From Cloacibacterium normanense (lineage in GTDB: Bacteria; Bacteroidota; Bacteroidia; Flavobacteriales; Weeksellaceae): 64,000 nucleotides of DNA. This document shows positions 15,974 to 34,036 of this stretch, piece by piece. The stretch spans positions 124,001-188,000 of the forward strand of contig NZ_PTPZ01000005.1 in NCBI RefSeq assembly GCF_002943105.1, written 5' to 3'. The position numbers were made by a program, and so were the translations under genes. The stretch's first letter is position 1, and each line of letters opens with the position of its first letter. The notes under the pieces were generated by a model, which had not been told where the DNA came from, made no database searches, and worked only from the letters and a program-made list of their open reading frames with translations.

Positions 15974-16020
15974 TACTTCAATTTATAATGGGTCCGTAAT
16001 TATTCTTCTTTTTGAGGTTG

Positions 16021-16028
16021 CAAAGATA
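16021..16028 (-). promoter_or_regulatory. TAnnTTTG promoter box of rpmH
   Basis: Minus-strand TATCTTTG followed by CAAC, 47 bp upstream of the rpmH ATG. Confidence 0.75.
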
Positions 16029-16238
16029 TGTTTTTTTTTATTTTCTGCAAATTAATTTTAGAAATAATTAAGTTTTTTTTGAGTAAATGGAATAAAACTT
16101 TTCTCAATAACTATTTTTAAGTGATTTTAATGATTGTACTTCTTCAAATTCTGTTTAATATGATTCTGAAAATCATTTTATAAATGTTGAGCGTTCAAAC
16201 ATCATCTTTGAGGTTTCGAGATTTTGGAGTAAAAAAAT

Positions 16239-16246
16239 TATCTTTG
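16239..16246 (+). promoter_or_regulatory. TAnnTTTG promoter box of nrnA
   Basis: TATCTTTG followed by CACC, 17 bp before the ATG. The rest of the 290-bp gap between rpmH and this gene is AT-rich and shows nothing else I can support. Confidence 0.7.
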
Positions 16247-16263
16247 CACCATAAATTTTTACA

Positions 16264-17268
16264 ATGTTTACAGAAAACCAACTTACAGAAATCAGAAGCC
16301 TTTTGCAACCGAATAAAAATGTAGTGATTATCACGCATTACAATCCAGATGGTGATGCAATTGGGAGTAGTCTTGGTTTAAAACATTTTCTTAAAAATTT
16401 AGGAGTTGATGCTACGGTAATTGTTCCGAATGATTTCCCGAAATTTCTAAAATGGATGCCCGAAGCAAAAAAAATAGTCATCGCAGAGTACAAACGTAAA
16501 ATTGCTGGCGAAGCGATTTATCATGCAGATGTAATTTTTTGTTTAGATTTTAATGCTCCTTCTAGAATTGGAATGTTAGGAGATTGGCTCACGAAATCTT
16601 GGGCGAAAAAAATCTTGATAGACCATCATCAGCAACCAGAGCATTTCGATTTTGTCTATTCTAATACCAGTATTCCCGCAACTTGTCAGATGGTGTATCA
16701 TTTCATTGAAGCTTTGGGAAAAGAAGATTTGGTAAATCAAGACGTGGCAGAATGTCTTTACACGGGAATTATGACTGATACTGGAGGTTTCCGTTTTCGT
16801 TCTACTTCTGCAGATACACATAGAATTGTAGCGAATTTAATAGAAAAAGGCGCTGATCCTTCTATGATTACGTCTAATACTTGGGATACCAATACGGTTT
16901 CTAGATTACATCTTTTGTCGTTGATTTTAGGAAGAATAGAATTGGTAAAAGATGGAAAAGTGGCGATTCTTTATTTAAAACGTGACGAATTAAAAGAATT
17001 TGGTTTCGAAAAAGGAGATACAGAAGGGTTTGTAAACTACGGATTGAGTATTGCAGGAACTAAAATGTCTGCTTTTTTCATGGAAGATTTATATGAAGAT
17101 TTCATCAAAATTTCTTTCCGAAGCAAAGACGATGTAGATACCAATGCATTTGCGAGAGCTCATTTCCATGGAGGTGGACATATCAATGCATCTGGAGGTA
17201 AATATTTTAAAAATATCCACGAAACCATTGAAGATTTTAAATCGAAGATTGAGAATGAAGATTTTTAA
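16264..17268 (+). CDS. nrnA: DHH-family phosphoesterase, NrnA-like oligoribonuclease/pAp phosphatase
   Basis: Members of this family degrade short oligonucleotides and/or dephosphorylate 3'-phosphoadenosine 5'-phosphate. Catalytic metal motifs are HYNPDGDAIGSS (25-36) and the DHH triplet at 120-122 (LIDHHQQPEHF), with the DHHA1 domain signature FHGGGHINASGG near the C-terminus. Length of 334 is normal. It overlaps the next small gene by 14 bp. Confidence 0.92.
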   Translation: MFTENQLTEIRSLLQPNKNVVIITHYNPDGDAIGSSLGLKHFLKNLGVDATVIVPNDFPKFLKWMPEAKKIVIAEYKRKIAGEAIYHADVIFCLDFNAPSRIGMLGDWLTKSWAKKILIDHHQQPEHFDFVYSNTSIPATCQMVYHFIEALGKEDLVNQDVAECLYTGIMTDTGGFRFRSTSADTHRIVANLIEKGADPSMITSNTWDTNTVSRLHLLSLILGRIELVKDGKVAILYLKRDELKEFGFEKGDTEGFVNYGLSIAGTKMSAFFMEDLYEDFIKISFRSKDDVDTNAFARAHFHGGGHINASGGKYFKNIHETIEDFKSKIENEDF

Positions 17269-17545
17269 ACAATTTTTCGCAGAGTTAAAAGACTACATTT
17301 CTGAATTTCTGAATGGTAGCCGTGAAGAATGGCAGTATAGAATCTCTGGTTTGATTGGTGTTTTGTCCATTTTACCATTTATATTTTTTATATGGAAACC
17401 TTATGAACCAGATTTTGTTAAAAGTTTGTCAAGATTTTATCAAAAATTGATAAGATATGCTTCGGCTCTAGCTTTTTATTTTTTAGTATTTCATTTATCA
17501 CAGTTTATTTTGAAATCATTTTTTAATAAGAAAATTAAGAAATAA
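17255..17545 (+). CDS. Small membrane protein of unknown function
   Basis: I chose the ATG at 17255, which overlaps the nrnA stop by 14 bp and gives a 96-residue protein; an upstream in-frame ATG at 17144 would only read through nrnA in another frame. It has an amphipathic charged N-terminus, two predicted transmembrane helices (about 31-48 and 66-86) and a lysine-rich C-terminus. No family recognised. The overlap suggests translational coupling with nrnA. Confidence 0.65.
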   Translation: MKIFKQFFAELKDYISEFLNGSREEWQYRISGLIGVLSILPFIFFIWKPYEPDFVKSLSRFYQKLIRYASALAFYFLVFHLSQFILKSFFNKKIKK

Positions 17546-17550
17546 AAATC

Positions 17551-18552
17551 TTAACAAATCCTAGGCAATTGCTCACCAATTAAAGGATTTACCACGCGTT
17601 TTCCGCCAAAAGCACTTTCCATAATGACTTTTCCGGCGTGTTCTTCGGTGATATAACCGATTTTCGAAGCGTGATGATTAACTCTTTGTAAAATTTCTAA
17701 AACTTCGTCTGAAATTTCATCGTCGCAAACACAAAGAAATGTTCCTTCATTCGCAACGTACATTGGGTCTAAACCTAGCAATTCGCAAGCGCTTTTTACT
17801 TGTCTTTGTACTAGAATTTTTTCTTCAAAAAGATGAATTCCGAGGTTGCTTTCAGAAGTAATTTCATTGAGAACAGAAGCTAAGCCGCCTCTTGTTGCAT
17901 CTCTTAGGAAATGAATTTTTTCACCAAAATTTTCGATGAGTTTTTTGACTTCAAAATTGAGATTTTTAGTGTCGCTCAAGATTTCAGAATCGAATTTTAA
18001 ACCTTCTCTTTCGCTCATAATTGCCATTCCGTGAGAAGCGATGTCTCTATTGATGATGATGGTTTGGTTCGGTTTTATGTATTCGATTCCGATTTTTGCA
18101 TTGTCATAAATTACACCAATTCCCGAGGTGTTGATGTAGATTTTGTCGCCTTTTCCGCGTTCTACCACCTTAGTGTCGCCTGTTACAATTTGTACACCTG
18201 CTTTTTCGGTGGCTAATTTTATAGAATGAATGATTTTTTCAAAATCTTCCATTGCAAAACCTTCTTCAATAATAAACGAAAGCGATAAATATTTGGGTTC
18301 TGCACCACACATCGAAATATCATTTACCGTTCCGAAAACCGCCAATTCGCCAATATTTCCTCCTTTGAAAAATATAGGAAAAACCACAAAACTGTCGCTA
18401 GAAAATGCTAACCTTCCAGATAATTCTAGAAAAGCACCATCATGTTTTTTGTTTAAGATTTCGTTTCCTAAATTTTTAAAAATAAGGTTATTGAGAAGTT
18501 CGGTCATCTTTTCGCCGCCACTTCCGTGCTGAAGGTTAATGCTTTCTGGCAT
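17551..18552 (-). CDS. hypE: [NiFe]-hydrogenase maturation protein HypE
   Basis: HypE accepts a carbamoyl group from HypF on its C-terminal cysteine and dehydrates it to the cyanide ligand of the active-site iron. The 333-residue protein has the AIR-synthase-like fold (LQHGSGGEKMTELL at the start, ATRGGLASVLNEI) and ends in PRIC, the required carbamoylated terminal Cys. It closes the minus-strand hypABC-E arm and converges on nrnA and its small partner. Confidence 0.97.
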   Translation of the reverse strand: MPESINLQHGSGGEKMTELLNNLIFKNLGNEILNKKHDGAFLELSGRLAFSSDSFVVFPIFFKGGNIGELAVFGTVNDISMCGAEPKYLSLSFIIEEGFAMEDFEKIIHSIKLATEKAGVQIVTGDTKVVERGKGDKIYINTSGIGVIYDNAKIGIEYIKPNQTIIINRDIASHGMAIMSEREGLKFDSEILSDTKNLNFEVKKLIENFGEKIHFLRDATRGGLASVLNEITSESNLGIHLFEEKILVQRQVKSACELLGLDPMYVANEGTFLCVCDDEISDEVLEILQRVNHHASKIGYITEEHAGKVIMESAFGGKRVVNPLIGEQLPRIC

Positions 18553-18575
18553 GATGCTTAATTTTTAAATTTTAA

Positions 18576-19334
18576 TTAAGATAATGCTGCTTTTTTTCTT
18601 ACATCTCTGTTCCAAATCCAGTCTCCCAAAGTGATGGCAGCGTTTATCATATAAAAAATATATTTGGCAATATTTGCAATATTCAGTTGTAAAAATGCTT
18701 TAATCAGCTGTACAACGTTATAAATGGTCCAACTTAAAAACGTGGTCTCGTATTTAAGCGCCGAACTGAAATTGGCGCCCAAAGAAAGTCCGAAAGTGAT
18801 AGAAACGATGTTGAAAAACAATAAATCGTCTCTTCCTCCGAAGATTTCCGTTCCTATGTAAACCAGTAAATATCCTAAAACTAAACCTACACTATTGATG
18901 AGGTAATAGTTGATGTCTATTTTTCTAATTTTTTCACCTTTTTTCCATTTAATCACTGCGAAATAAGTGATGATAAAGGTTAAAGGATAGGTAATTGCTG
19001 CGGAATGATTTCCTAAAAAGTAATCAATCGTTCCCGAATTTATAGTGGTAAAAACGCCAATAATATTGCCCACATTATTTTGTTTGCCCACAAATCTGGT
19101 AGAGAGTAAAGAAAAAACGGCTCCGATGGTAGAGAAAATTCCTAGAGGAAAAGCACCTTGTTTGATGAGTGCGATTTGCTCTGAAAAAGGAACGTCGAAC
19201 TTTACATTTCCTTGGAAATAATAAGTGAGATGATATTGATTATAGATGCTGATAACGAGGACTAATGTTGCTCCAAATAGGTCTAAATATTTAGATTGCA
19301 CAAAGGAACGAACTGCTTTTTTTAGGTGAATCAT
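18576..19334 (-). CDS. PnuC-like multi-pass membrane transporter within the hyp operon
   Basis: The 252-residue protein has about seven predicted transmembrane helices. Features such as GNHSAAITYPLTFIITYFAV, FLSWTIYNVVQLIKA and ANIAKYIFYMINAAITLGDW resemble the PnuC family of nicotinamide riboside/NMN transporters. It lies between hypC and hypE (23 and 64 bp gaps) on the same strand, so it is probably cotranscribed with hydrogenase maturation genes. A link to cofactor or metal supply is inference; the substrate cannot be read from sequence. Confidence 0.65.
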   Translation of the reverse strand: MIHLKKAVRSFVQSKYLDLFGATLVLVISIYNQYHLTYYFQGNVKFDVPFSEQIALIKQGAFPLGIFSTIGAVFSLLSTRFVGKQNNVGNIIGVFTTINSGTIDYFLGNHSAAITYPLTFIITYFAVIKWKKGEKIRKIDINYYLINSVGLVLGYLLVYIGTEIFGGRDDLLFFNIVSITFGLSLGANFSSALKYETTFLSWTIYNVVQLIKAFLQLNIANIAKYIFYMINAAITLGDWIWNRDVRKKAALS

Positions 19335-19398
19335 TTTTAAGTTTTATCACAAAATTCTTATAAAGTTTTAACAAAAATAAGAAAATCGTGATGATTAC

Positions 19399-19653
19399 CT
19401 AGTTTTCGGGCTCTAATTCTAAATCTTCTCCCATTAATTTCAGGGCGTCCATCGTTTTTTTTGCTTCATCTTCATCAATTATTCCGATAGCGGCACCTAC
19501 GTGAACGAGAACATAATCGCCAACTTTGGCTTCTGGAACCAAAGCGAGATTTACCTCTTTTCTGATGCCTTCAAAATCTACACTTCCTATTCTAAAGACT
19601 TCGTCTAGCTGAGAAGTAATGTTTTCTAATTTTCCTGGAATGGCTAAACACAT
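19399..19653 (-). CDS. hypC: [NiFe]-hydrogenase maturation chaperone HypC
   Basis: HypC carries the Fe(CN)2CO unit with HypD and delivers it to the large-subunit precursor. The 84-residue protein begins MCLAIPGK; Cys2 is the essential ligand. It has the OB-like core GDYVLVHVGAAIGIIDEDEA. An acidic tail ends the protein. Confidence 0.97.
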   Translation of the reverse strand: MCLAIPGKLENITSQLDEVFRIGSVDFEGIRKEVNLALVPEAKVGDYVLVHVGAAIGIIDEDEAKKTMDALKLMGEDLELEPEN

Positions 19654-19678
19654 AATTTTCTTTGTTAAGTTGATGATT

Positions 19679-19738
19679 TGTAAAGTTGTAAAACTGTAAA
19701 AAATAATTCTTTCGAGATTTTACGATTTTACAATTTTG
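19679..19738. repeat. Imperfect palindromic AT-rich repeat between hypB and hypC
   Basis: A run of GTAAA-type words on one side and TTTTAC words on the other forms an imperfect hairpin. The word AAAATCGTAAAA (minus strand, 19718-19729) also occurs exactly inside waaA at 44129-44140. The repeat supplies the last codons and stop of hypB. Confidence 0.55.
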
Positions 19739-20604
19739 CTTCTTAAAAATTCATACCAAGCTTCCATTCCTTCTCCTGAAGTAGCTGAAACTTCAAAAAA
19801 TTGGATATTTGGATTTACTTTTTTTGTGTTTTCTTTCAGTTTTTCTACATCAAATTTTAAGTATGGTAATAAATCAATTTTATTGATAATACAAATATTA
19901 GAACTGTAAAACATATCTGGATATTTCAGAGGTTTATCTTCTCCTTCTGTGGTAGAAATAATGACTACTCTTTGGTTTTCTCCTAAATCAAACATGGCAG
20001 GACAAACTAAGTTTCCTACATTTTCTATCATGAGTATAGAATTTTGTTTTGGTTTTAGTTCTTTTAAAGATTTGGCAATCATTTCTGAATCGAGGTGGCA
20101 TCCTTTTCCAGTGTTGATTTGAAGAACAGGAACGTTTAACGCGTGTATTCTGGCTGCGTCATTGGTGGTTTGTTGGTCCCCTTCTATTACAGAAAATTCT
20201 ATTTCACCTTTTAAGTCGGCGATGGTTTTTTCTAAAAGCGAAGTTTTCCCAGAACCAGGCGAAGAAACCAAATTCATTGCGAAAATATTTAAAGCTTCAA
20301 AAAATCCACGGTTTCTTTCTGCAACTAATTGATTTTGGTGAAGAATATCTTTTTCTAGTTCTACAATATTTACATCATGATGATGGTGGTGATCATGATT
20401 GTGGTCGTGATGATGATGTTCGTGGTCATGATTATGTTCATGTCCATGTTCGTGATGGTGTTCATGACTGTGGGAGTGATCTCCATGATGATGTTCATGA
20501 GAATGAGTATGACCATTGTGATGATGGTGAGTATGACGGTTTTCTCCCATTTTTGTTAAAGTAATTCCGTTTTCGTTGGAGCTACATCCGCAAGTTGAGC
20601 ACAT
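19720..20604 (-). CDS. hypB: [NiFe]-hydrogenase nickel-insertion GTPase HypB, His-rich
   Basis: HypB is the GTPase that with HypA inserts nickel into the large subunit. The 294-residue protein starts with the high-affinity Ni motif CSTCGCSS, then a histidine-rich tract (residues 24-76, 33 His of 53) for nickel storage, then the SIMIBI G domain with Walker A SSPGSGKT (114-121) and NKID. Its last codons (KIVKS) lie in the repeat that follows. It starts 11 bp after hypA. Confidence 0.97.
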   Translation of the reverse strand: MCSTCGCSSNENGITLTKMGENRHTHHHHNGHTHSHEHHHGDHSHSHEHHHEHGHEHNHDHEHHHHDHNHDHHHHHDVNIVELEKDILHQNQLVAERNRGFFEALNIFAMNLVSSPGSGKTSLLEKTIADLKGEIEFSVIEGDQQTTNDAARIHALNVPVLQINTGKGCHLDSEMIAKSLKELKPKQNSILMIENVGNLVCPAMFDLGENQRVVIISTTEGEDKPLKYPDMFYSSNICIINKIDLLPYLKFDVEKLKENTKKVNPNIQFFEVSATSGEGMEAWYEFLRSKIVKS

Positions 20605-20615
20605 ATGTTTAAATT

Positions 20616-20957
20616 TTAGCTGATAATTAATTTTTTTATTTTCATTTCTTGTCCTGTAATGATTTCCTTAAAAGGACTTCCGCAGCGTTCACAGGAATCA
20701 TAAATTTTAGAAATCTCGAATTCATGATTGCACTCTGCGCATCTCGCAAAACCATCTGGTTCTGTAATGTGAACTTTAGCATTTTCTAAAACACTATCCT
20801 TCATGCATTGTTCCCACGCAAATTCTAAAGAAGGAATTTCAATGCCAGAAATTTTGCCAATTTCTAGGTAAATTTCTTCTACTTTTTTGCCGTTAATTTT
20901 CTCAACTTCTTGAGTGGCAGTTTTTAAAATAGAGGTTGCAATTGAAAGTTCGTGCAT
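20616..20957 (-). CDS. hypA: [NiFe]-hydrogenase nickel metallochaperone HypA
   Basis: HypA delivers nickel together with HypB. The 113-residue protein begins MHELSIA, with the nickel ligand His2, and has a zinc site of two CxxC motifs (C73/C76 and C89/C92). It is the first gene of the minus-strand maturation arm, divergent from hyaA across a 242-bp spacer. A TAGATTTG box lies at 20980-20987. Confidence 0.97.
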   Translation of the reverse strand: MHELSIATSILKTATQEVEKINGKKVEEIYLEIGKISGIEIPSLEFAWEQCMKDSVLENAKVHITEPDGFARCAECNHEFEISKIYDSCERCGSPFKEIITGQEMKIKKLIIS

Positions 20958-20970
20958 TTTTTTGTTAAAT

Positions 20971-21073
20971 CATATGTAACAAATCTACACTTTTCTGATT
21001 AATTTTTTAAATGATTTTTGTGTTTTTAATAGGACTTTTATATGATTTTAATCAGTAACAAAAGTAACATATG
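20971..21073. promoter_or_regulatory. Divergent hypA/hyaA control region with GTAAC half-sites
   Basis: The region contains CATATGTAAC at 20971-20980 and its near inverse GTAACATATG at 21064-21073, plus GTAACAAAAGTAAC at 21055-21068. These flank the hypA promoter box TAGATTTG (minus, 20980-20987). The arrangement suggests a shared operator for the two arms; the binding protein (NikR or a Crp/Fnr-type factor) is unknown. Confidence 0.4.
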
Positions 21074-21199
21074 TTTAATAAAGTCACTGTTTATGGGATG
21101 TTTTGTTTAAAATAAATTTAAAATAATTATAAATAACATAATGTTTTTCGTTTGTATTTCAAAAATTTTCTAATTTTAGAAGGATTAATAAAAAATAAT

Positions 21200-22336
21200 A
21201 TGGGGACTAAAACTTCAACCAATGAAACTTATCTTCAGAGTATTGAGAGACAAGGATATTCTAGAAGAGATTTCATGAAATTTGTTGCCTTTATTGGCGC
21301 ATACATGGGTATCGAAAGTTCAGCTCTTGGTCAAGTAGCCAAAGCATTAGCTACTACACCAAGATTACCTGTAATATGGGAGCATTTCCAAGAATGTACC
21401 TGTTGCAGTGAGTCTTTTATCCGTTCAGACCATCCTATCGTAGCGGATATAATTCTTGATAAGATTTCATTAGATTACACTTTAACATTGATGGCGGCTA
21501 GTGGTCATCAAGCAGAAGCTGCGAAAAAATCTACCATGGAGAAATATAAAGGAAAATATATTCTTTGTGTAGAAGGTTCTGTTCCTCTAGGAGATGATGG
21601 TAATTATTGTGTAATTGCAGGAAGAACAGCTATAGATATTCTAAAAGAATCTGCCAAAGACGCTGCTGCTATCATAGCATGGGGAAGCTGTGCAACTACA
21701 GGTTGTGTACAAGCAGCAAAACCTAATCCTACTGGTGCGGTTCCTATTAATAAAATTATTACAGATAAACCGATTATCAATGTTCCAGGTTGTCCTCCAA
21801 TTGGTGAGGTAATGGCTGGAGTGATTGTACATTATGTAGCATTTGGTAAATTACCAGAATTAGATGCTGCAGGAAGACCAAAAGCTTTCTATTCTAAACG
21901 TGTTCACGATAGCTGCTACAGAAGACCTTATTTTGATGCTGGTCTTTTCGTAGAAAGTTTCGATGACGAAAATGCTAAAAAAGGATATTGTCTATATAAA
22001 GTAGGCTGTAAAGGACCATCTACTTATAATACCTGTGGTAATATGAAATGGAATGGTGGCATTTCTTACCCAATTCAGTCTGGTCATGGATGTCTAGGAT
22101 GTAGTGCAGATAAATTCTGGGATGCAGCAGATAGTTTCTATTCTAGAGACATTTCTGCAATAGGTGGTTTCGCAGAGAGTAATGCTGATACTGTGGGTAA
22201 AGTTGCTCTTGGTGGTGTAGTTGCCGGAGCTGCAATACATGCCGTAGCTTCTAATATTTCTAAGAGAAAAGATTTAGAAAGAAGAATAAAAGAAGCAGAA
22301 GAAAGTGAAAAAAAATTAGCTAAAGACAAGATTTAA
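21200..22336 (+). CDS. hyaA: [NiFe]-hydrogenase small subunit, oxygen-tolerant type
   Basis: The start is set at ATG 21200, placing the Tat motif SRRDFMKF at residues 21-28. The 378-residue subunit carries three Fe-S clusters. Cysteines 66, 68, 69, 164, 169 and 198 match, with a constant offset of 49, the six ligands of the [4Fe-3S] proximal cluster of Ralstonia HoxK as I recall that sequence. The distal cluster is H236/C239/C264/C270 and the medial one C279/C298/C301. A C-terminal helix (about 333-352) anchors it to the membrane, followed by a charged tail. hyaB follows after 11 bp. Confidence 0.96.
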   Translation: MGTKTSTNETYLQSIERQGYSRRDFMKFVAFIGAYMGIESSALGQVAKALATTPRLPVIWEHFQECTCCSESFIRSDHPIVADIILDKISLDYTLTLMAASGHQAEAAKKSTMEKYKGKYILCVEGSVPLGDDGNYCVIAGRTAIDILKESAKDAAAIIAWGSCATTGCVQAAKPNPTGAVPINKIITDKPIINVPGCPPIGEVMAGVIVHYVAFGKLPELDAAGRPKAFYSKRVHDSCYRRPYFDAGLFVESFDDENAKKGYCLYKVGCKGPSTYNTCGNMKWNGGISYPIQSGHGCLGCSADKFWDAADSFYSRDISAIGGFAESNADTVGKVALGGVVAGAAIHAVASNISKRKDLERRIKEAEESEKKLAKDKI

Positions 22337-22347
22337 AAATTTAAAAA

Positions 22348-24084
22348 ATGGCAAATAGAATAGTAGTAGATCCTATTACAAGGATTGAAGGTCACTTAAG
22401 AGCAGAGGTAGAAATCACAGACGGAACCATCAGAGACGCATTCCTTTCATCAGGGATGGTACGTGGTTTAGAAAATATTGTAAAAGGCAGAAACCCAAAA
22501 GATGTTTGGGCTTTTGTACAAAGAACTTGTGGAGTATGTACTACTACCCACGCTATTGCTTCTATTAGAGCAGTAGAAAACGCATTAGGAATTAATGTAC
22601 CGCCTAATGCAGAAATGGTGAGAAATATAATGCTAGGTTCATTATATGTGCATGATCATATTGTACACTTCTATCACCTTCATGCATTTGATTGGGTAGA
22701 TGTAGTCAATGGTTTAAGTGCAGACCCTGTAAAAACATCACAATTAGCACAGTCTATCTCTAATTGGCCAAAATCCTCACCAGGATATTTTGCTGATTTA
22801 CAAAAACGTTTGAAAAAATTTGTAGACAGCGGACAGTTAGGAATCTTTGCAAACGGATATTGGGGACACCCAGCTATGAAACTTCCACCAGAAGCGAATT
22901 TAATGGCAACAGCTCACTACCTTGAAGCTTTAGAATGGCAAAAAGAAATCGTAAAAATTCACGCTATTTTTGGAGGTAAAAATCCACACCCTAATTTCTT
23001 AGTAGGAGGAATGGCTTGTGCAATTAATGTAGATGATGCGAGCGGACTGAACGCTGAAAGATTAGCATTGGTTCAAAAATTATTAATCCAAGGAAAAGAA
23101 TTTGTAGAACAAGTTTATCTTCCAGATTTATTAACGATTGCTAGTTTCTACAAAGATTGGGGCGCAATTGGTGGTTTCCATAATTTTATGGCATTCGGAG
23201 ATTTCCCAATGGCTGGTTATGGAAATAAAGACATGAGTACCTACAAATTCCCAGCAGGTGTAATTCTTAATAAAGATTTATCTAAAGTACATGATGTAGA
23301 TTTAGAAAATCTGAAAACAGTAGAAGAACACGTGAATAATTCTTGGTACGATTATACAGGTGATCCAAACGCTGGAAAACAACCATGGAGTGGAGAAACG
23401 AATATCAATTATACAGGTCCGAAACCTCCATATGAATTCTTAGATGTAGAAAATAAATACAGCTTTATCAAAACTCCTCGTTGGAAAGGTCAAGCGATGG
23501 AAGTAGGCCCATTAGCCAGAATGTTAGTTGGTTATGCATTAGGAAGAGAAGATTTCAAAGAAGTAGTAGATTCTGCATTAACGAAATTAGATGTTCCTGC
23601 AGAAGCATTATTCTCTACTTTAGGTAGAACAGCAGCTAGAGGTTTAGAAACTCAATTAGTAGCTCAGTGGAATTTAGAATTCTATGATAAATTAATTGAA
23701 AATATCAAAGGAGGTGATGAAAGAATGGCAAATATGGAGAAATGGGAAGTTTCTACATGGCCAGCCGAAGCCAAAGGTGTAGGTAGAGTAGAGGCTCCAA
23801 GAGGTGGATTAAGCCACTGGATTGTAATAAAAGATGGTAAAACAGAAAATTACCAACAAATTGTCCCTTCAACTTGGAATGCTTCACCACGTGATCCAAA
23901 AGGACAGCGCTCTCCTTACGAAAGTACTTTAATCAATACTCCAGTTGCAGACCCAGAACTTCCATTAGAAATCATTAGAACGATTCACTCTTTTGACCCA
24001 TGTATTGCTTGTGCAGTGCATTTGTATGACGAAAAAGGAAATATCATCAAAGAAATTAATGACGTTTCTGTTTGTACCGTTTAA
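22348..24084 (+). CDS. hyaB: [NiFe]-hydrogenase large subunit
   Basis: It holds the Ni-Fe(CN)2CO active site that splits H2. The four ligand cysteines are in RTCGVCTTTH (C61, C64) and DPCIACAVH (C552, C555). The precursor has a 20-residue tail after H558, expected to be cleaved by HyaD once nickel is inserted. The sequence type, with RIEGHLRAEVEI at the start and the partner small subunit, fits group 1 membrane-bound uptake enzymes. It is followed 17 bp later by hyaC. Confidence 0.97.
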   Translation: MANRIVVDPITRIEGHLRAEVEITDGTIRDAFLSSGMVRGLENIVKGRNPKDVWAFVQRTCGVCTTTHAIASIRAVENALGINVPPNAEMVRNIMLGSLYVHDHIVHFYHLHAFDWVDVVNGLSADPVKTSQLAQSISNWPKSSPGYFADLQKRLKKFVDSGQLGIFANGYWGHPAMKLPPEANLMATAHYLEALEWQKEIVKIHAIFGGKNPHPNFLVGGMACAINVDDASGLNAERLALVQKLLIQGKEFVEQVYLPDLLTIASFYKDWGAIGGFHNFMAFGDFPMAGYGNKDMSTYKFPAGVILNKDLSKVHDVDLENLKTVEEHVNNSWYDYTGDPNAGKQPWSGETNINYTGPKPPYEFLDVENKYSFIKTPRWKGQAMEVGPLARMLVGYALGREDFKEVVDSALTKLDVPAEALFSTLGRTAARGLETQLVAQWNLEFYDKLIENIKGGDERMANMEKWEVSTWPAEAKGVGRVEAPRGGLSHWIVIKDGKTENYQQIVPSTWNASPRDPKGQRSPYESTLINTPVADPELPLEIIRTIHSFDPCIACAVHLYDEKGNIIKEINDVSVCTV

Positions 24085-24101
24085 TCTAAAAATATTTTAA
24101 A

Positions 24102-24854
24102 ATGGAAAACACAACTCAAATTCAAGAAGGCGTTCCTATTAAAACGGTCACCTTCAGACGAGCGTACATTTGGCAATTGCCCGTTCGTTTTTTCCATTGG
24201 ATTAATGGTTTTGCAATTACTTTTCTCATTATTACAGGGTTTTTAATCGCGAAACCTCCTGCAATTATGACTGCAAAAGAAGCGTCAGGACAATTTTGGA
24301 TGGGACTAATCAGACAAGTACATTTCATAAGTGCTTATGCAATGGTTGCTGTAATGTTTATGAGAGTTTATTGGGCTTTTGTAGGAAACAGATTTGCCAA
24401 TTGGAGACAGTTTGTGCCTTTTGATAAAAAAGGAAGAGAAAAAATGTGGCACGTAATCAAGTACGATATCTTTTTATTCAACGAAAAAGAATATAAGTTC
24501 ACGAGCATTCCTATTGGTCATAATGCAGTTGCTGCAGCATCTTATTTGGTAATGTTCATTCTAGCTTTAGTGATGATTTTCACTGGGTTTGCATTATATG
24601 CACCAACTTCTACTTGGTTCTTCCCTAAGTTTTTTGCTTGGGCTACCTCGTTGATTACTACAGATGAATTTTTAATCAGAAGAATTCACCATATTGTAAT
24701 GTGGGCATTTATATTGTTCATTGCAGTACATTTTTACCTAGTCTTATTCCACGATTGGTTAGAAGGTCGTGGTGAATCTTCGGCAATGGTAAGTGGTTAC
24801 AAATTCGTAAGAAAGGAAAGATTCGAAGATTATAAAGAAGAGGAGAAACATTAA
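24102..24854 (+). CDS. hyaC: Hydrogenase cytochrome b subunit
   Basis: This di-heme b-type cytochrome anchors the hydrogenase and passes electrons to quinone. The 250-residue protein has four transmembrane helices with histidines placed for heme binding in FFHWINGF, HFISAYAM and the last helix (HIVMWAFILFIAVHFYL). It completes the HyaABC respiratory complex. Confidence 0.94.
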   Translation: MENTTQIQEGVPIKTVTFRRAYIWQLPVRFFHWINGFAITFLIITGFLIAKPPAIMTAKEASGQFWMGLIRQVHFISAYAMVAVMFMRVYWAFVGNRFANWRQFVPFDKKGREKMWHVIKYDIFLFNEKEYKFTSIPIGHNAVAAASYLVMFILALVMIFTGFALYAPTSTWFFPKFFAWATSLITTDEFLIRRIHHIVMWAFILFIAVHFYLVLFHDWLEGRGESSAMVSGYKFVRKERFEDYKEEEKH

Positions 24855-24869
24855 TATTAAACTAAACCG

Positions 24870-24907
24870 AATTCCCTGAAATAATGATCATTTTCGGGGA
24901 ATTTTTT
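24870..24907 (+). terminator. Terminator-like hairpin between hyaC and hyaD
   Basis: Stem AATTCCCTGAAA / TTTCGGGGAATT (one wobble pair) with a 10-nt loop, ending in six Ts. It probably reduces read-through from structural genes into maturation genes. Confidence 0.75.
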
Positions 24908-25442
24908 GCCTCAAAAATTTAAAATTTTGAAAAATAATACAGAAACTTTCCAATATACCGTAGACGAATTTCATTCTGACGGAAATGACATTCTCATTTT
25001 GGGAATCGGGAATTATTTGATGGGAGACGAAGGAATTGGTGTTCAGTTTGTTAAAAATTTAGACACTTCTAGATTTCCAAAAAATATCAGTTTTTTAGAT
25101 GGAGGAACTGGCGGTTTTTCACTTGTTCCCTACATCGAAAGTCATGAGCATGTGATTATTGTAGATGCCACGATGGACGGAAAAGAAGAAGGAACGATTA
25201 CCCTTCTTACCCCTAAATTTTCAGATGATTTCCCCGTTTCGTTGAGCGGTCATAATTTTGGATTAAAAGACATGGTAGATATTCTTACTTTTATGGATAA
25301 AATGCCTAATATTTACCTTTTCACGGTTACCATTTCTAAAATGGAGCCCATGTATCTTGAGCTTTCACCAAAAGTAGCCGCGGCTATTCCAAAAGTAACC
25401 GAAATGGCTCTAGAATTAGTTCAAAAAATTAGAAAAAATTAA
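24906..25442 (+). CDS. hyaD: Hydrogenase maturation endopeptidase HyaD
   Basis: It removes the C-terminal tail of the large subunit after nickel insertion. The family core LILGIGNYLMGDEGIGVQ (about 30-47, with the nickel-sensing Glu), an Asp in VDATMDG and His in SGHNFGLKD match the HybD fold. There is no ATG near the start: the candidates are TTG 24906, inside the terminator T tract, or TTG 24927, which I consider more plausible. About 25 residues precede the conserved core. Confidence 0.9.
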   Translation: MPQKFKILKNNTETFQYTVDEFHSDGNDILILGIGNYLMGDEGIGVQFVKNLDTSRFPKNISFLDGGTGGFSLVPYIESHEHVIIVDATMDGKEEGTITLLTPKFSDDFPVSLSGHNFGLKDMVDILTFMDKMPNIYLFTVTISKMEPMYLELSPKVAAAIPKVTEMALELVQKIRKN

Positions 25443-25536
25443 ACGCTCATAGATTTCATAGAAATAAACAAGTCAATTTTAAATTTTTATTAAAATAATT
25501 TCATCTGTGAAAATCCGTGAAATCTGTTCGAACAAA

Positions 25537-27807
25537 ATGAAAACTACCGAAATACATATATCAGGGCGAGTTCAAGGTGTAGGTTTTCGTCCTTTTATTT
25601 TCAATTTGGCTGAAGAATTTCAGTTGAAAGGCTACGTTTCTAATGATGAGTTGGGTGTAATCATCGTTTGTCAAGGTGAAAATTCTGAGCAATTTTTTAA
25701 TGAAATTCACCATAGAAAACCGAAATCTTCCGAAATCATTTTTTCGGAAATCAAAGAAATTGAAACGGCAGAAATTTTTGATAATTTCTATATCAAACCT
25801 ACCGAAAAAAACATTGTGGTAGATATTCCGTTAACGCCAGATTTTGCCACTTGCGAATCTTGTGAAACAGAACTTTTTGATGAGAAAAATCCTCGTTATT
25901 TTTATCCTTTTACCACTTGTACACAGTGCGGACCGAGATATTCCGTGACTAAGAAATTCCCTTTCGAAAGAGAAAACACAGCAATTGAAGTTTTTAAAAT
26001 GTGCCCGAATTGTTTAGCAGAATACCAAAATCCAGAGGATGTAAGGTTTCATTCTCAAACCAATTCTTGTCCGAATTGTGGTATTCAAATTTGGTTAAAA
26101 GACAACCAAGGAAACGAATTTAAAGGCTCCAACAAAGAAATTTTCGAAAAATTAGCCAAAGAATTATCTCAAGGAAAAATCGTAGCACTCAAAAATACAG
26201 CAGGATATCTTTTAATGTGTGATGCTACCAATTCAGAAGCCATTTTAGAGTTGAGAAAAAGAAAACGCAGACCTACGAAACCTTTCGCCGTTTTATTTTC
26301 AGGAATTTCAACAATGAAGGAATATTTAGAAATTTCTGAATTGCAAATTCAGCATTTCAAATCCTCTGAAAGTCCTATAATTGTTACTAAAATTAAGGAC
26401 AAAAAAGATTTGGCAATTGAAGAAATTTCACCGAATATGAATACGATTGGCGCGATGTTTCCGTATTCTGGAACGTTGAAGTTGATTTCGAAAACTTTCG
26501 GAAAACCACTCATCGCAACCAGTGGAAATTTCCATGGTTCGCCAATTTGCTCTACAACAGAAGAAGCTGAGCAAATTTTAGGTAAAATTGCAGATTATTT
26601 TTTGCATAATACATTAGAAATTCAGCATCCTCAAGACGATTCTGTGATTAAATTTTCTCCAAAACATCACCAGAAAATTGTTTTTCGTCGTTCCAGAGGT
26701 TTTGCGCCGAATTATTTCTTTGCCGAAGAACTTTCGGAACTCAATAAAGAGAAAAATAAAATTTTGAGTTTAGGTGGAGACTTGAAAAACACCTTTGCTA
26801 TTGTTCCAAATAATCACGTTTATATTTCAGAATACATAGGCGATTTAGCGAATTTTGAAACCTACGAAAGATTTGAAAATACGGTAAAATCTTATCAAAA
26901 AATATTTAATTTTCAGCCAGAAATAATTCTTAAAGATTTACACCCAAAATATGAAAATCAAAATATAATTTCAAAATTTTCAAAAAAATCTGCTCAATCT
27001 GCGAGAATAGAAGAAATCCAACATCATAAAGCACATTTCGCCTCCATTTTAGGAGAAAAAAAGCTATGGAAAAAAGATAAAATTTTGGGCATTATTTGGG
27101 ACGGAATTGGTTTCGGAACTTCTACAGAAATTTGGGGCGGAGAATTTTTCCTTTTTGAAAATCAAAAAATGGAAAGAGTGGCTCAACTCGAAAATTTCGC
27201 TTGGATTTTAAGCGATAAAATGTCTAAAACACCTAAAATTTCAGCACTTTCAATTTCAGGAAATAATGAAGATTTGAAATTTGCTTTTGATGAAAACGAA
27301 TGGAAAATTTACACCAACTTAATTGAAAAATCAGAGATTAAAACTTCTTCTATGGGAAGGTTTTTTGATGCGGTTGCTTTTGTTTTAGGTTATGAAAAAC
27401 CTTTGTTTTTTGAAGGAGAATCTGCAATGTGGCTGGAGAAAATTTCTCAAGATGCTTTTGATGAAAATGTAAAGTTGATTGATTATTTAGAAGAAGAAAA
27501 TTTTGAAAATATTCCCACTAAAAAACTATTTTCAAGGATTTTAAAAGAAAAAATATCAGGAAAAAATTTGGGAGAAATCGGACTGAATTTTCATTATACT
27601 TTAATTAAAGCGATTGAAAAAATAGCAGAAGGTTTTGCTGTGAAAGAAATCGCTTTTTCTGGTGGAGTATGGCAAAATGCTTTGTTAGTAGATTTGGTAA
27701 TAGAATTTTTGGGAGATAAATTTGAGCTTCATTTCCACGAAAAACTTTCACCAAATGACGAGAACATCAGTTTCGGACAATTGAATTATTACTTAAAGTT
27801 AAAATAA
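25537..27807 (+). CDS. hypF: [NiFe]-hydrogenase maturation carbamoyltransferase HypF
   Basis: HypF makes the carbamoyl-adenylate used by HypE for the cyanide ligands. I chose ATG 25537 (756 residues), since the acylphosphatase domain starts there (EIHISGRVQGVGFRPF); a GTG at 25507 is also possible. Next come zinc fingers (CESCE, CTQCG, CPNCL, CPNCG), a YrdC-like domain (KNTAGYLLMCDATN) and the Kae1-like carbamoyltransferase domain (EEIQHHKAHFASIL). Full length for the family. Confidence 0.96.
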   Translation: MKTTEIHISGRVQGVGFRPFIFNLAEEFQLKGYVSNDELGVIIVCQGENSEQFFNEIHHRKPKSSEIIFSEIKEIETAEIFDNFYIKPTEKNIVVDIPLTPDFATCESCETELFDEKNPRYFYPFTTCTQCGPRYSVTKKFPFERENTAIEVFKMCPNCLAEYQNPEDVRFHSQTNSCPNCGIQIWLKDNQGNEFKGSNKEIFEKLAKELSQGKIVALKNTAGYLLMCDATNSEAILELRKRKRRPTKPFAVLFSGISTMKEYLEISELQIQHFKSSESPIIVTKIKDKKDLAIEEISPNMNTIGAMFPYSGTLKLISKTFGKPLIATSGNFHGSPICSTTEEAEQILGKIADYFLHNTLEIQHPQDDSVIKFSPKHHQKIVFRRSRGFAPNYFFAEELSELNKEKNKILSLGGDLKNTFAIVPNNHVYISEYIGDLANFETYERFENTVKSYQKIFNFQPEIILKDLHPKYENQNIISKFSKKSAQSARIEEIQHHKAHFASILGEKKLWKKDKILGIIWDGIGFGTSTEIWGGEFFLFENQKMERVAQLENFAWILSDKMSKTPKISALSISGNNEDLKFAFDENEWKIYTNLIEKSEIKTSSMGRFFDAVAFVLGYEKPLFFEGESAMWLEKISQDAFDENVKLIDYLEEENFENIPTKKLFSRILKEKISGKNLGEIGLNFHYTLIKAIEKIAEGFAVKEIAFSGGVWQNALLVDLVIEFLGDKFELHFHEKLSPNDENISFGQLNYYLKLK

Positions 27808-27819
27808 TAAAATGAATAC

Positions 27820-27902
27820 TGTCATTCTGAAAGAAATGAAATGTAGTGAAGAATCTAATGGTAAAAGATTCTTCATTTCGCTTTGCTGCATTCAGAATGA
27901 CA
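27820..27902. repeat. Dispersed palindromic repeat (TGTCATTCTGAA type)
   Basis: The 83-bp element has 12-bp perfect inverted ends (TGTCATTCTGAA / TTCAGAATGACA) and inner arms TGAAGAATCT / AGATTCTTCA. From memory it belongs to a family of intergenic palindromes common in Bacteroidota. It lies between hypF and the FKBP gene and could act as an mRNA hairpin. Confidence 0.75.
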
Positions 27903-27926
27903 TTAAAAAAATTTAAAATTTCATAA

Positions 27927-28553
27927 ATGGACATTTACGATTTATTAGGAAAAATAGACCACACCGAAGACGAAGACAAAGTATCTTATTCTGCAGGTGT
28001 TGTTTTGGCGATGAGCTTGAAAGATATGGGCTTTGAAGATATTAAATACGATGATTTTACGGAAGGAATGAAAACTGTTTTCAATAATGAAATGGGAAAA
28101 ATTTCGCCAAAAAAATCTATTGATATTTTCAACAATTATGTGCTCTTGCTTCGTGGTGAAATGTTGCAAAAAAATGCAGATGAAGGACAAGCTTTTCTCG
28201 AAAAAAATAAAGAAAATCCTAAAATTACAGAATTAGAAAGCGGTTTGCAATACGAAATTTTGGTAGAAGGAAACGGAGCAGTTCCAAAAATAACCGATGA
28301 GGTAGAAGTAGAATATGAAGGTTATTTGCTAGATAAGCAGGTTTTTGATTCTACTAAAGATGTAGGTGCTCAAGTTTTTAGAATTTCAGAAATGATAGAA
28401 GGATGGAAAGATGTGTTGACTAAAATGCAAGAAGGTTCTCGTTGGAAAGTGTATATTCCGCCACATTTAGCTTATGGCGAAAACGGAGCGCCACCAATGA
28501 TTCAACCGAATGCTACTTTGGTTTTTGTGATAGAACTGAATAAAATCATGTAA
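27927..28553 (+). CDS. FKBP-type peptidyl-prolyl isomerase
   Basis: The 208-residue cytoplasmic protein (no signal peptide) has an N-terminal helical dimerisation region typical of Mip/FkpA-like FKBPs and a C-terminal FKBP domain (about 105-208) with VEVEYEGYLLDKQVFDST and PPHLAYGENGAPPMIQPNATLVFVIEL. It catalyses proline cis-trans isomerisation. Its place between hypF and nikR hints at a folding role in hydrogenase maturation, comparable to SlyD in enterobacteria, but it lacks SlyD's metal-binding tail; this is inference. Confidence 0.9.
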   Translation: MDIYDLLGKIDHTEDEDKVSYSAGVVLAMSLKDMGFEDIKYDDFTEGMKTVFNNEMGKISPKKSIDIFNNYVLLLRGEMLQKNADEGQAFLEKNKENPKITELESGLQYEILVEGNGAVPKITDEVEVEYEGYLLDKQVFDSTKDVGAQVFRISEMIEGWKDVLTKMQEGSRWKVYIPPHLAYGENGAPPMIQPNATLVFVIELNKIM

Positions 28554-28589
28554 AATAATTTATTCACTATCTGGAATTTAATTATTTTA

Positions 28590-28616
28590 GTAACAATAAT
28601 TTTTAAGAAAGTAACA
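28590..28616 (+). promoter_or_regulatory. Candidate NikR operator before nikR
   Basis: GTAACA at 28590 and GTAACACG at 28611 lie exactly 21 bp apart, the second ending at the nikR start codon. The same layout occurs before the downstream TonB receptor gene. Assignment to NikR is inference. Confidence 0.4.
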
Positions 28617-28618
28617 CG

Positions 28619-29020
28619 ATGGCGCAAGTAAGATTTGGAGTGAGTTTAGACGAAGAAGTTTTGAAAGAATTAGACCAATTTGTTCTAGACAATCATTTGC
28701 CAAACCGTTCACAAGCGATTCGACACTTGGTAGAAAACCGAATTGTAGAAAAGAAATGGAAAGAAAATGATGTGGTTTCTGGTGCTATTGTGTTGCTTTT
28801 TGATCATCATAAAGGTGATGTAGGTGTAAAGATGAATGATATTCAGCATAAATTTTACAAAGAAATTCTTTCAGCACAACATTTTCATCTAGACCATGAT
28901 AATTGCTTAGAAATTATTGCAGTTAAAGGAAACGCAAATCGTTTAACCGATTTAGCCAATAAATTAATTGGTTTAAAAGGGATTATTCATGGGAAATTGG
29001 TAACCAGTAAAATGATATAA
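28619..29020 (+). CDS. nikR: Nickel-responsive transcriptional regulator NikR
   Basis: A ribbon-helix-helix repressor that binds DNA when loaded with nickel. The 133-residue protein has the RHH domain (RFGVSLDEEVLKELDQF, RSQAIRHLV) and the ACT-like nickel domain with the four ligands H77, H88, H90 and C96 (in QHFHLDHDNCLE), each one position beyond the E. coli ligands. Its place within the hydrogenase island next to a TonB receptor suggests it controls nickel uptake. Confidence 0.95.
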   Translation: MAQVRFGVSLDEEVLKELDQFVLDNHLPNRSQAIRHLVENRIVEKKWKENDVVSGAIVLLFDHHKGDVGVKMNDIQHKFYKEILSAQHFHLDHDNCLEIIAVKGNANRLTDLANKLIGLKGIIHGKLVTSKMI

Positions 29021-29023
29021 ACT

Positions 29024-29060
29024 AACCCTTTCAGAGTTTCAAACTCTGAAAGGGTTTTTA
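29024..29060 (+). terminator. Strong intrinsic terminator after nikR
   Basis: A 16-bp perfect stem AACCCTTTCAGAGTTT / AAACTCTGAAAGGGTT around one base, followed by a T run. It separates nikR from the receptor gene. Confidence 0.85.
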
Positions 29061-29071
29061 ATTTGCAAAAA

Positions 29072-29098
29072 GTAACACGAAAATATAAAAAAGTAATA
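29072..29098 (+). promoter_or_regulatory. Candidate NikR operator before the TonB receptor
   Basis: GTAACACG at 29072 and GTAATACG at 29093 are 21 bp apart, the second just upstream of the ATG at 29103. The 8-mer GTAACACG is identical to that before nikR. Confidence 0.4.
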
Positions 29099-29102
29099 CG
29101 GT

Positions 29103-31358: not shown

Positions 31359-31365
31359 AAATGAT

Positions 31366-31373
31366 TATCTTTG
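31366..31373 (+). promoter_or_regulatory. TAnnTTTG promoter box of hypD
   Basis: TATCTTTG eight bases after the receptor stop and 37 bp before hypD, so hypD need not depend on the receptor transcript. Confidence 0.6.
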
Positions 31374-31409
31374 AAAGACATTGAATTTGAAGTATTTAAA
31401 TAAAAAAGC

Positions 31410-32486
31410 ATGAAATTTCTTACCGAATACCGCAATCCAGAACTCGTAAAGTTTTATTTAAACGAAATCGAAAAAATTGTTACAAAACCTTGGAATATCA
31501 TGGAAATTTGTGGCGGACAAACCCATTCTTTAGTGAAAAACGGTTTGTTAGAACTACTTCCAGACAAAGTGAGAATGATTCACGGTCCTGGTTGCCCAGT
31601 TTGCGTTACCCCGATTTCGTTGATTGATAAAGCGGTAGCTTTAATGGAAAAAGGCGCCGTTTTATGTTCTTTTGGAGATATGGTAAGAGTTCCGGGAAGT
31701 GAAAAATCATTGCTTCAAGCCAAAGCTGATGGTGGAGATTTAAGGATTCTGTATTCTCCGTTAGAAGCTGTTCAAATTGCAGAGCAGAATCCTAATAAAG
31801 AAGTGGTATTCTTTGCTGTAGGTTTTGAAACTACCGCTCCAAGTAATGCTTTAAGCGTGGTTCATGCCCAAAAATTAGGTCTTAAAAATTTCTCACTTTT
31901 AGTTTCTCATGTTCTGGTTCCGCCTGCAATGGAAGCCATTTTAGATGATGAATTTTGCAATATTGATGCGTTTTTGGGAGCGGGTCATGTTTGTACCATT
32001 ATGGGAACTTCAGAATATTTTCCTTTGGCCGAAAAATATAAAATACCGATTGTTATTTCAGGATTTGAACCTGCAGATTTGCTTAAAGCCATTTATCACG
32101 CTGTTTTGCAACTCGAAAAAGGCGAACATAAAGTAGAAAATTGCTACGAACGTTTGGTGAAAGACGAAGGAAATATTCCTGCTCAAAAAGTGGTCAACGA
32201 AATTTTTGAAATTGGAACTCAAGAATGGCGCGGAATTGGCGAAATCCCAAATTCTGGTTTAGTCATGAAAGAAAAGTACAAAGATTTTGATGCTTCTAAA
32301 AAATTTGACATTGAAAATTTAGAGAAAAAAGAAGAAAATCTTTGTATTGCTGGTGAAATCCTGAAAGGCATTAAAAAACCAGTTGAATGTCCGCATTTTG
32401 GGAAACTTTGCAATCCTGGGAATCCTTTAGGAGCACCAATGGTTTCTTCAGAGGGAGCTTGTGCAGCGTATTATCATTACAGTTAA
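31410..32486 (+). CDS. hypD: [NiFe]-hydrogenase maturation protein HypD
   Basis: HypD with HypC assembles the Fe(CN)2CO unit. The 358-residue protein carries the conserved cysteine motifs CGGQTH (C34 on), GPGCPVC (C62, C65), GAGHVCTIMG and the C-terminal iron-sulfur region CPHFGKLCNPG. It lies apart from hypC, hypA and hypB but in the same island; together all six hyp genes (A-F) are present. Confidence 0.97.
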   Translation: MKFLTEYRNPELVKFYLNEIEKIVTKPWNIMEICGGQTHSLVKNGLLELLPDKVRMIHGPGCPVCVTPISLIDKAVALMEKGAVLCSFGDMVRVPGSEKSLLQAKADGGDLRILYSPLEAVQIAEQNPNKEVVFFAVGFETTAPSNALSVVHAQKLGLKNFSLLVSHVLVPPAMEAILDDEFCNIDAFLGAGHVCTIMGTSEYFPLAEKYKIPIVISGFEPADLLKAIYHAVLQLEKGEHKVENCYERLVKDEGNIPAQKVVNEIFEIGTQEWRGIGEIPNSGLVMKEKYKDFDASKKFDIENLEKKEENLCIAGEILKGIKKPVECPHFGKLCNPGNPLGAPMVSSEGACAAYYHYS

Positions 32487-32590
32487 TAGAAGCGAGATTC
32501 AAGAAGTGAGATTTCAGATTTTTATTTAAAAAATTACATCTCATTTAATAATTATCTCATATCTAAAGTATCATATCTCAAATCTTAAAA

Positions 32591-33196
32591 ATGTTTAAAA
32601 TATTTCTTACCATCTATTCTGGCTTAGAGCATGCTTTTGAAGCCGACCATTTATTGGCGGTGAACACACTTGTTTCTCACCGCGAAAATCTGAAACAATC
32701 CATGAAAGATGGAATTTATTGGGGAATTGGTCATACCGCAACTATTTTTTTCATTGGAATTTTAATGATTGGATTTAAGTTTCAAATTGGGGAAGAAGTT
32801 TTTAAAAATTTTGAAGCAGGAGTAGGTGTTATGTTAATTATTTTGGGGCTTTACAGAGTTTTTAAACTCTTTTTTCCGAAAGAACACACTCATACTCATA
32901 ACACTTCTAGAGCAGCTTTCGGCGTGGGATTAATTCACGGTTTGGCTGGGAGCGGAGCATTAGTAGTTTTGGTGATTTCTCAGATGAAAACACCTTTAGA
33001 AGGGTTGATGTACATTCTTATTTTCGGGTTAGGTTCTATTTTCGGGATGTTTTTAGCGGCGTATTTGTTTAGTATTCCTTATACCAAAAGTCTTTTGAAA
33101 TCTAAAAAATTACAAGCCAGTTTGGTGATTATTTCCTCTATACTTTGTATCGTTTACGGCGGAAAAGTGGTGGTTGAAAATCTAGGGTTGCTTTAG
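32591..33196 (+). CDS. NicO/UreH-type nickel or cobalt transporter
   Basis: The 201-residue protein has about six transmembrane helices. The first holds HAFEADH (14-20), the HX4DH signature of NiCoT/NicO transporters that binds the metal. A loop with EHTHTHN adds histidines, and GVGLIHGLAGSGALVVLV repeats the His theme in a later helix. It likely brings nickel across the inner membrane for the hydrogenase. A 104-bp spacer with short repeat-like sequence separates it from hypD. Confidence 0.82.
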   Translation: MFKIFLTIYSGLEHAFEADHLLAVNTLVSHRENLKQSMKDGIYWGIGHTATIFFIGILMIGFKFQIGEEVFKNFEAGVGVMLIILGLYRVFKLFFPKEHTHTHNTSRAAFGVGLIHGLAGSGALVVLVISQMKTPLEGLMYILIFGLGSIFGMFLAAYLFSIPYTKSLLKSKKLQASLVIISSILCIVYGGKVVVENLGLL

Positions 33197-33257
33197 AATT
33201 TGGGCAATCCCCAATTTGCAAAATTTCCAACACCCAAATCTTTGCAATTTTGCAAAA

Positions 33258-33330
33258 AGGGTCGGGCTTTCCGTTGCAATTCCTCACTCGCTTTCAGCGG
33301 TTGCGGGATTTTCACTGCAATCCCTATTGT
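33258..33330. repeat. Dispersed repeat (GGGTCGGGCTTTCC...CAATCCCTA type)
   Basis: This GC-richer stretch after the NicO gene contains GGGTCGGGCTTTCCGTTGC and GGGATTTTCACTGCAATCCC, matching from memory a repeat family common in flavobacterial intergenic regions. It ends the hydrogenase island. Confidence 0.6.
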
Positions 33331-33355
33331 GAAAAGAGATTTGATTATTATTTCA

Positions 33356-34036
33356 TTATCGGCAATCAGTTTTTAATTTCTCAATTTTTTTATTTGCGGT
33401 AGAATCTATTCTTTTTTCATAATAGTAATACTTCTTTAAATCGTTATACGTTCCAATAAAAAATTCTGAATTACCATTTGAATATGTTCTTCCCGCATAA
33501 AAAATTGCTAATTTATCTCTAGGAGGTTCTTTTTTATTTTTTTCTAACGTCCATTCTTCATTGAAATCTTGTACCATTAACTCTTCAATTTTCACTCTTT
33601 TTTCATTATCAATAATATAAAATTTTTGATTTATAAATCCTTGTTCATCTTTAAATTGAGTTAAAAGAACGCCATCGTTTGGAATCTCATAAACTCGTGA
33701 ATCTTCTTCGTATTTTATTGGAGTTCCACATTTATGATTATAAGAAATATAAACAAAACCTCTATAGTTTTTTGGAATCAAAAAAATTTCTGGTTCAATA
33801 GTATTTATTTTCTTCCAAATTAAAATGCATATAGGAACTATTATAATTGGAAGAATTGAAAATACAATTTTTTTTAAAGAATTATAATTAGTAAACCATA
33901 AGATTGTAATTAAAATTATTAGACTTATTATTGGTAAAAAATAGAAGTATAATAATCCTGGCAAAAAACCAATTATCAAGGAATTTGTTATTATTAGAGT
34001 TAATATGAAAATTTTAAAAATATCTTTATTAATCAT
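33356..34036 (-). CDS. Hypothetical membrane protein (possibly DUF6843)
   Basis: The 226-residue protein has about three hydrophobic helices within residues 8-75 and a soluble C-terminal domain of about 150 residues with FVYISYNHKCGTPIKYEEDS and IPNDGVLLTQF. The pattern recalls DUF6843 proteins; I am not certain. Very AT-rich codon use. Function unknown. The gene is close behind the convergent repeat. Confidence 0.7.
   Translation of the reverse strand: MINKDIFKIFILTLIITNSLIIGFLPGLLYFYFLPIISLIILITILWFTNYNSLKKIVFSILPIIIVPICILIWKKINTIEPEIFLIPKNYRGFVYISYNHKCGTPIKYEEDSRVYEIPNDGVLLTQFKDEQGFINQKFYIIDNEKRVKIEELMVQDFNEEWTLEKNKKEPPRDKLAIFYAGRTYSNGNSEFFIGTYNDLKKYYYYEKRIDSTANKKIEKLKTDCR

Follow-up and report, generated by a model that had tools for sequence, protein, structure and literature searches.

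The hydrogenase locus

The window analysed here is a stretch of 64,000 nt from the Cloacibacterium normanense genome (contig NZ_PTPZ01000005.1, positions 124,001 to 188,000), and it carries the structural genes of a NiFe hydrogenase together with hyp maturation genes (Table 1). On the minus strand, an intact ORF for a multi-pass protein is wedged between hypC and hypE, where the original prediction had placed it, and both neighbouring genes are likewise intact. The hydrogenase genes themselves, together with hypF and hypD, lie on the opposite strand and include one for a b-type cytochrome subunit (TIGR02125, above cut-off); hydrogenases of the b-type cytochrome kind are membrane-bound and do not use NAD. 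The NikR regulator, the TonB-dependent receptor and the NicO/HupE-like permease encoded further on may act jointly in nickel uptake.

Scans for transcription signals between 17400 and 21200 were uninformative, with 0 terminator-like sites against 2.0 in shuffled sequences and 12 promoter-like sites against 14.2; one Bacteroidota-type promoter-like site, containing a mismatch, falls within hypB. Riboswitch control of the ORF was discarded on the basis of an Rfam scan of positions 16000-34000 at E 1, which returned no riboswitch near it and, as its sole match, a region resembling Flavo-1 RNA (Table 1).

Table 1. Annotated features at and around the PnuC-like gene (window coordinates)
Feature	Coordinates	Strand	Evidence and remarks
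hypE	17551..18552	-	TIGR02124, 422 bits; downstream neighbour, 23 nt gap
hypC-to-hypE interval carrying the insert	18553..19398	-	7 nt (G010) and 9 nt (G089) in insert-free congeners
PnuC-family transporter gene	18576..19334	-	ATG start, 252 aa, intact ORF; PF04973
hypC	19399..19653	-	TIGR00074; upstream neighbour, 64 nt gap
hypB, His-rich N-terminal region	19720..20604	-	Pfam/NCBIfam
hypA	20616..20957	-	Pfam/NCBIfam
NiFe hydrogenase small subunit, large subunit, b-type cytochrome, maturation protease	21152..25442	+	
hypF	25507..27807	+	Pfam/NCBIfam
NikR nickel regulator	28619-29020	+	
TonB-dependent receptor	29103-31358	+	
hypD	31410..32486	+	away from its usual site upstream of hypE
NicO/HupE-like permease	32591..33196	+	PF03824, 28.2 bits, cut-off 27.7; HupE_UreJ_2 below cut-off
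Flavo-1 RNA-like match	33256-33332	-	39.4 bits, slightly under the gathering score of 42

A PnuC-family protein under purifying selection

As had been proposed from the sequence, the product of the ORF belongs to the PnuC family. It matches PF04973 (NMN_transporter) with an E-value of 2.2e-13 and a score of 51 bits (cut-off 27.3), and the match joins residues 67-239 to positions 3-173 of the 175-position profile, covering the last seven of the eight long helices in the structural model described below. No NCBIfam model was reached at E 0.001, the PnuC equivalog TIGR01528 included; among the 36 aligned members of the subfamily, all match PF04973 and 17 reach TIGR01528 at this threshold. The host genome encodes another PF04973 protein on a separate contig, with a stronger match of 174 bits.

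Orthologs of the window protein are present in two further species, with 98-99% protein identity. Between pairs of the three carrier species, the dN/dS of the PnuC-like gene is 0.016, 0.041 and 0.030, comparable to the values for HypE in the same species (0.033-0.036), and because this range shows purifying selection, the ORF is a working gene. Its GC content (0.33-0.35) is no outlier against that of the window (0.327).

Fold and the WxxW motif

The window protein was aligned with 35 relatives (69 full-length proteins reduced at 85% identity, two subfamily proteins shorter than 215 aa having been left out ahead of the alignment), and the AlphaFold2 model built on this alignment has a mean pLDDT of 93.3 and a pTM of 0.88. 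Of its eight long helices, seven lie between residues 64 and 242. The best two Foldseek matches are chains of the PnuC structure 4QTN, which we take to be a Neisseria protein (top E 2.9e-6, probability 1.00, TM 0.60/0.64, rmsd 5.9). A second structural aligner placed 4QTN far ahead of the next entry (Z 17.3 versus 7.5), with an rmsd of 3.7 and 14% identity over 205 aligned residues, so that the comparison with PnuC suggested in the original prediction gives a clear best fold match. A search of solved structures with the single sequence returned nothing at E 10, and the alignment profile recovered 4QTN weakly, at E 0.0031, unrelated chains starting at E 0.26.

The profile alignment sets the columns of F199 and W202 on the two Trp residues of the WALW stretch of 4QTN. 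According to PMC7162841, TM6 of PnuC contains a conserved WxxW that binds the substrate. The window protein has FxxW at this place, the first Trp being replaced by Phe, whereas 34 of the 36 aligned members retain it; the other exception is a protein of a Winogradskyella MAG, and Phe also occupies this position in the G039 and G080 orthologs. W202 is conserved in 36/36 rows and N206 in 35/36. The window protein resembles 4QTN, a nicotinamide riboside transporter, in its fold and in the alignment of its second Trp and the Asn that follows, and differs from it in overall sequence, in the Phe and in a host that has no NadR-type kinase above cut-off. The next gene downstream of the Winogradskyella one (L028, 9980-10762) resembles a CobW-type GTPase by eye.

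Because Phe at the first WxxW position is found in only one other protein of the 36 and the locus is nickel-related, one could envisage a PnuC derivative of altered specificity, carrying for example nickel or another metal complex for hydrogenase assembly, which the original prediction had raised as one option. We consider this extremely improbable. The protein has no Cys, and its only His residues (3, 35 and 110) all lie outside the eight long helices, H3 sitting in a short N-terminal helix; it was on these two absences that the metal substrate was ruled out. Moreover, L012 and L013, the proteins closest to it, have Ala in place of H110 (though the Saprospirales rows L021, L022 and L025 have His), the near-invariant W202 and N206 are kept, and NikR, the TonB-dependent receptor and the NicO/HupE-like permease are already encoded at the locus.

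Placement within the genus and the family

Seven genomes of the genus were sampled, five of which have a full-length hypE. In three of these five (G000, G039 and G080) the PnuC-like gene lies between hypC and hypE, whereas in G010 and G089, which keep their hyp and hydrogenase genes, the site is empty and hypC is separated from hypE by a few nucleotides (Table 1). The hypC of the host stops two codons sooner than that of the congeners without the insert. Within the genus, one gain and one loss fit this distribution alike, and the gene might be ancestral and have been lost from G010 and G089. The wider sample speaks against such a loss: the PnuC gene is also missing from four family genomes that have hypC upstream of hypE (G012, G003, G106 and G096) and from G400, which has the hypABC-E layout of the host, and the closest proteins come from Saprospirales-type genomes, not from family relatives (see below). 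We therefore regard ancestral presence followed by loss as unlikely and gain as the probable course of events.

hypD is absent between hypC and hypE in the genus as well as in G012 of the same family, and the joint differs in content among relatives, which is why we read it, from few cases, as a permissive spot. In G012 it comprises about 205 nt with no convincing gene. G003 has two small ORFs there (65 and 107 aa; toxin-antitoxin-like by eye, neither matching a Pfam family), G106 has a 236-aa ORF on the opposite strand with no Pfam match, and in G096 the joint measures 34 nt. Beside the hypE of G101, no hypC was detected.

Surveys outside the genus

Searching with the window protein at E 0.001 gave matches in 8/197 family genomes, five of them weak (L006-L010, E 1.7e-5 to 9.3e-4), and in 6/395 phylum genomes, the own genome counted. 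A GTDB scan yielded 72 named loci of this PnuC-like subfamily outside the genus. Around none of the 72 did tblastn at E 1e-4 detect HypA-F or hydrogenase genes, some neighbourhoods being seen in part because of short flanks (at least 9 kb on both sides in 43/72 and at least 3 kb in 51/72). One locus with no ORF over the match (L087) was kept in this search and is absent from the gene-neighbour table, which therefore holds 71 loci.

Approached from the side of the hydrogenase, a strong HypE match (E 1e-60) is present in 132/395 phylum genomes, the own genome counted, and we examined the hypE neighbourhoods of 50 of the other 131, namely the 30 best-scoring (flanks up to 1.5 kb) and 20 chosen ones (flanks of about 4 kb). 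Searches at E 1e-3 with the subfamily profile and with the genome's other PnuC found a PnuC gene in none of these 50, in agreement with the earlier remark that it is an unexpected partner for hyp genes. In 41/50, the first hyp gene detected upstream of HypE was HypD, with HypC upstream of HypD in 31 of these; 8/50 gave no match to either HypC or HypD, and a single neighbourhood showed hypA-B-C-E without hypD. In the family, strong HypE matches occur in 10/296 genomes, half of which belong to the genus, and none of the five others, three of them on contigs shorter than 9 kb, has a PnuC gene near hypE. Among the papers covered by the literature search, none linked PnuC with hypC and hydrogenase, or with hydrogenase maturation.

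Among the loci surveyed, co-occurrence of the PnuC-like gene with hyp genes is not conserved. As far as sampled, its placement is unique and recent, an outcome that the original prediction had named as telling against its own reading. Could the transporter nevertheless have been recruited for the hydrogenase, being co-induced with the hyp genes and importing an NAD precursor or another nucleoside for hydrogen oxidation? Its orientation along with the hyp genes, the short gaps on either side, the lack of terminator-like sites in 17400-21200 and its retention under purifying selection in three species would all suit such a role. Two congeners that have hyp and hydrogenase genes do without it, however, the pairing recurs at none of the loci surveyed from either side, and the host possesses NadA, which performs one step in making NAD de novo, alongside a hydrogenase of the b-type cytochrome kind. 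Recruitment is, in our judgement, quite unlikely, and we give even less credence to a combined version, very unlikely in our view, in which an acquired PnuC with an altered WxxW would now be a working, co-induced member of the hyp operon importing a metabolite for the hydrogen-oxidising state. NAD supply for the hydrogenase, which had been put forward as a possible function, was rejected as unneeded, because the host has NadA and its hydrogenase includes a cytochrome of the b type.

Origin of the gene

The nearest proteins belong to Portibacter and other Saprospirales-type genomes, with 48-63% identity in the alignment, as opposed to 31-39% for the 16 Flavobacterium-type rows, and this difference suggests horizontal transfer of the PnuC-like gene. 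In the tree, the window rows fall within the Saprospirales-type group with support of 95/94, long-branch warnings applying elsewhere in the tree, and they return to this group (95/97) once the long branches are removed. Constraining the window row to group with the 16 Flavobacterium-type rows gave an AU p-value of 0.064, by which such a grouping is disfavoured, although not formally rejected. Saprospirales-like bacteria would be the donors and the ancestor of the three carrier species the recipient. One Flavobacterium-type locus (L029) comes from a GTDB record titled as a Klebsiella pneumoniae MAG, a title that is probably wrong.

Relatives and the possible substrate

The Saprospirales-type proteins (L017-L027, Portibacter included) share 49-66% identity with the window protein in the scan, are similar in length and align in the WxxW region; in contrast to the window gene, no hyp genes were found near theirs. 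The Portibacter homolog comes after Sulf_transp/DUF6691 and TauE/SafE genes, unlike the window gene, and this neighbourhood is conserved, as judged by Pfam for L017, by the same clusters in L019 and by a TauE-like gene common to L020. It might hint at another substrate, and it is a point that a nucleoside reading leaves unexplained. In Flavobacterium (e.g. L032, L044 and L054), the homolog commonly lies beside an opposite-strand gene resembling a LacI regulator by eye (cluster C1, 40/71 loci), which is followed by a conserved three-gene block.

More distant members of the subfamily are found in Streptococcus, Lactobacillaceae and Veillonella (11 loci, e.g. L039, L048, L060, L083 and L088; 36-45% identity in the scan), and all seven that were aligned retain WxxW, unlike the window protein. 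The copies in lactobacilli and Veillonella have varied neighbours, whereas immediately behind the Streptococcus copy (L039) lies an NrtR-type gene, its product combining NUDIX and NrtR_WHD domains. Since PMC12735969 reports an NrtR-regulated pnuC-nadR operon in Streptococcus sobrinus, nicotinamide riboside is our leading guess for the substrate of the Streptococcus branch, by analogy. Elsewhere in the PnuC family, substrates named in PMC7749635 include thiamine, riboflavin and, as a prediction, deoxynucleosides. Rfam scans of 8 of the 11 Bacillota loci returned tRNAs and one DUF3800-I RNA, with no riboswitch among the matches, and that of 13 kb around the host's other PnuC gene (L109) gave two matches, both under the gathering score. 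A simple kinase motif had no match within six genes of the homologs at 71 loci.

For the window protein itself, nicotinamide riboside is the candidate we would name first, while placing it somewhat short of an even chance. This reading is weakened by the lack of a NadR-type kinase above cut-off in the host, where all matches to PF13521 and TIGR01526 fall below it. Another nucleoside is a possible but more doubtful substrate, and by our own estimate the remainder falls to other vitamins or further compounds. PnuN, a predicted deoxynucleoside transporter named in PMC7749635, belongs to the same wider family, and the host has a deoxynucleoside kinase; no NrdR-like box lies near the window gene. 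A scan of the whole window with a motif that we assume to represent the NrdR box gave a single match, with three mismatches, at 43561, far from the gene and against 0.37 expected in the window, and the PnuN reading by way of NrdR boxes was dropped.

A probable acquired passenger of the hyp operon

Taken together, the most probable explanation, and one we hold with fair confidence, is that a horizontally acquired PnuC facilitator rides in the hyp operon and stands outside hydrogenase maturation. An ancestor of three species of the genus would have received the gene from a Saprospirales-like donor, and it would have been inserted into the hypC-hypE joint after this had been opened by the relocation of hypD. 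Co-transcribed with its neighbours, it would probably be a passenger on the hyp transcript with no part in maturation. The facilitator would pass a vitamin precursor of the nucleoside type across the inner membrane, with nicotinamide riboside as the likeliest candidate, and the imported precursor would be trapped by metabolism within the cell. Co-expression with the hyp genes may still be of use, because three species have retained the gene at this place and the scan of 17400-21200 detected no terminator-like site. The Phe in the WxxW motif, the missing match to an NCBIfam PnuC model and the lack of a riboswitch match close to the gene likewise count against our main explanation. A link of the PnuC-like gene to hydrogenase maturation is not supported, since the pairing is confined to a single small clade, the sister sites are empty and no such partnership occurs elsewhere among the loci examined; most likely, this is a new member of the PnuC family in an accidental place.

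The case cautions that operon neighbours can mislead on function, as what looks like an accessory maturation gene seems to be an insert confined to one lineage and sitting in a joint opened by the move of hypD. The subfamily to which it belongs spans Saprospirales, Flavobacterium, lactobacilli and Veillonella, and its substrate could be assayed.

Loss of the hydrogenase locus in two congeners

The hydrogenase locus has been lost from G056 and G070, the two sampled genomes of the genus that have no full-length hypE. Their shared junction connects codon 301 of hypE with codon 173 of hupE across 5 nt, leaving a remnant in which the final 33 codons of hypE are fused to the terminal part of the hupE-like gene (L105, 9333-9536; L106, 8763-8959; window equivalents 17652 and 33107). 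In window coordinates the lost segment corresponds to 17653-33106, about 15.45 kb, and it spans the PnuC insertion site. The flanks are mostly collinear with the window, 33202-34069 and a stretch near 17300-17548 being unmatched in both genomes. Because the junction is identical in the two, a single ancestral deletion is suggested.
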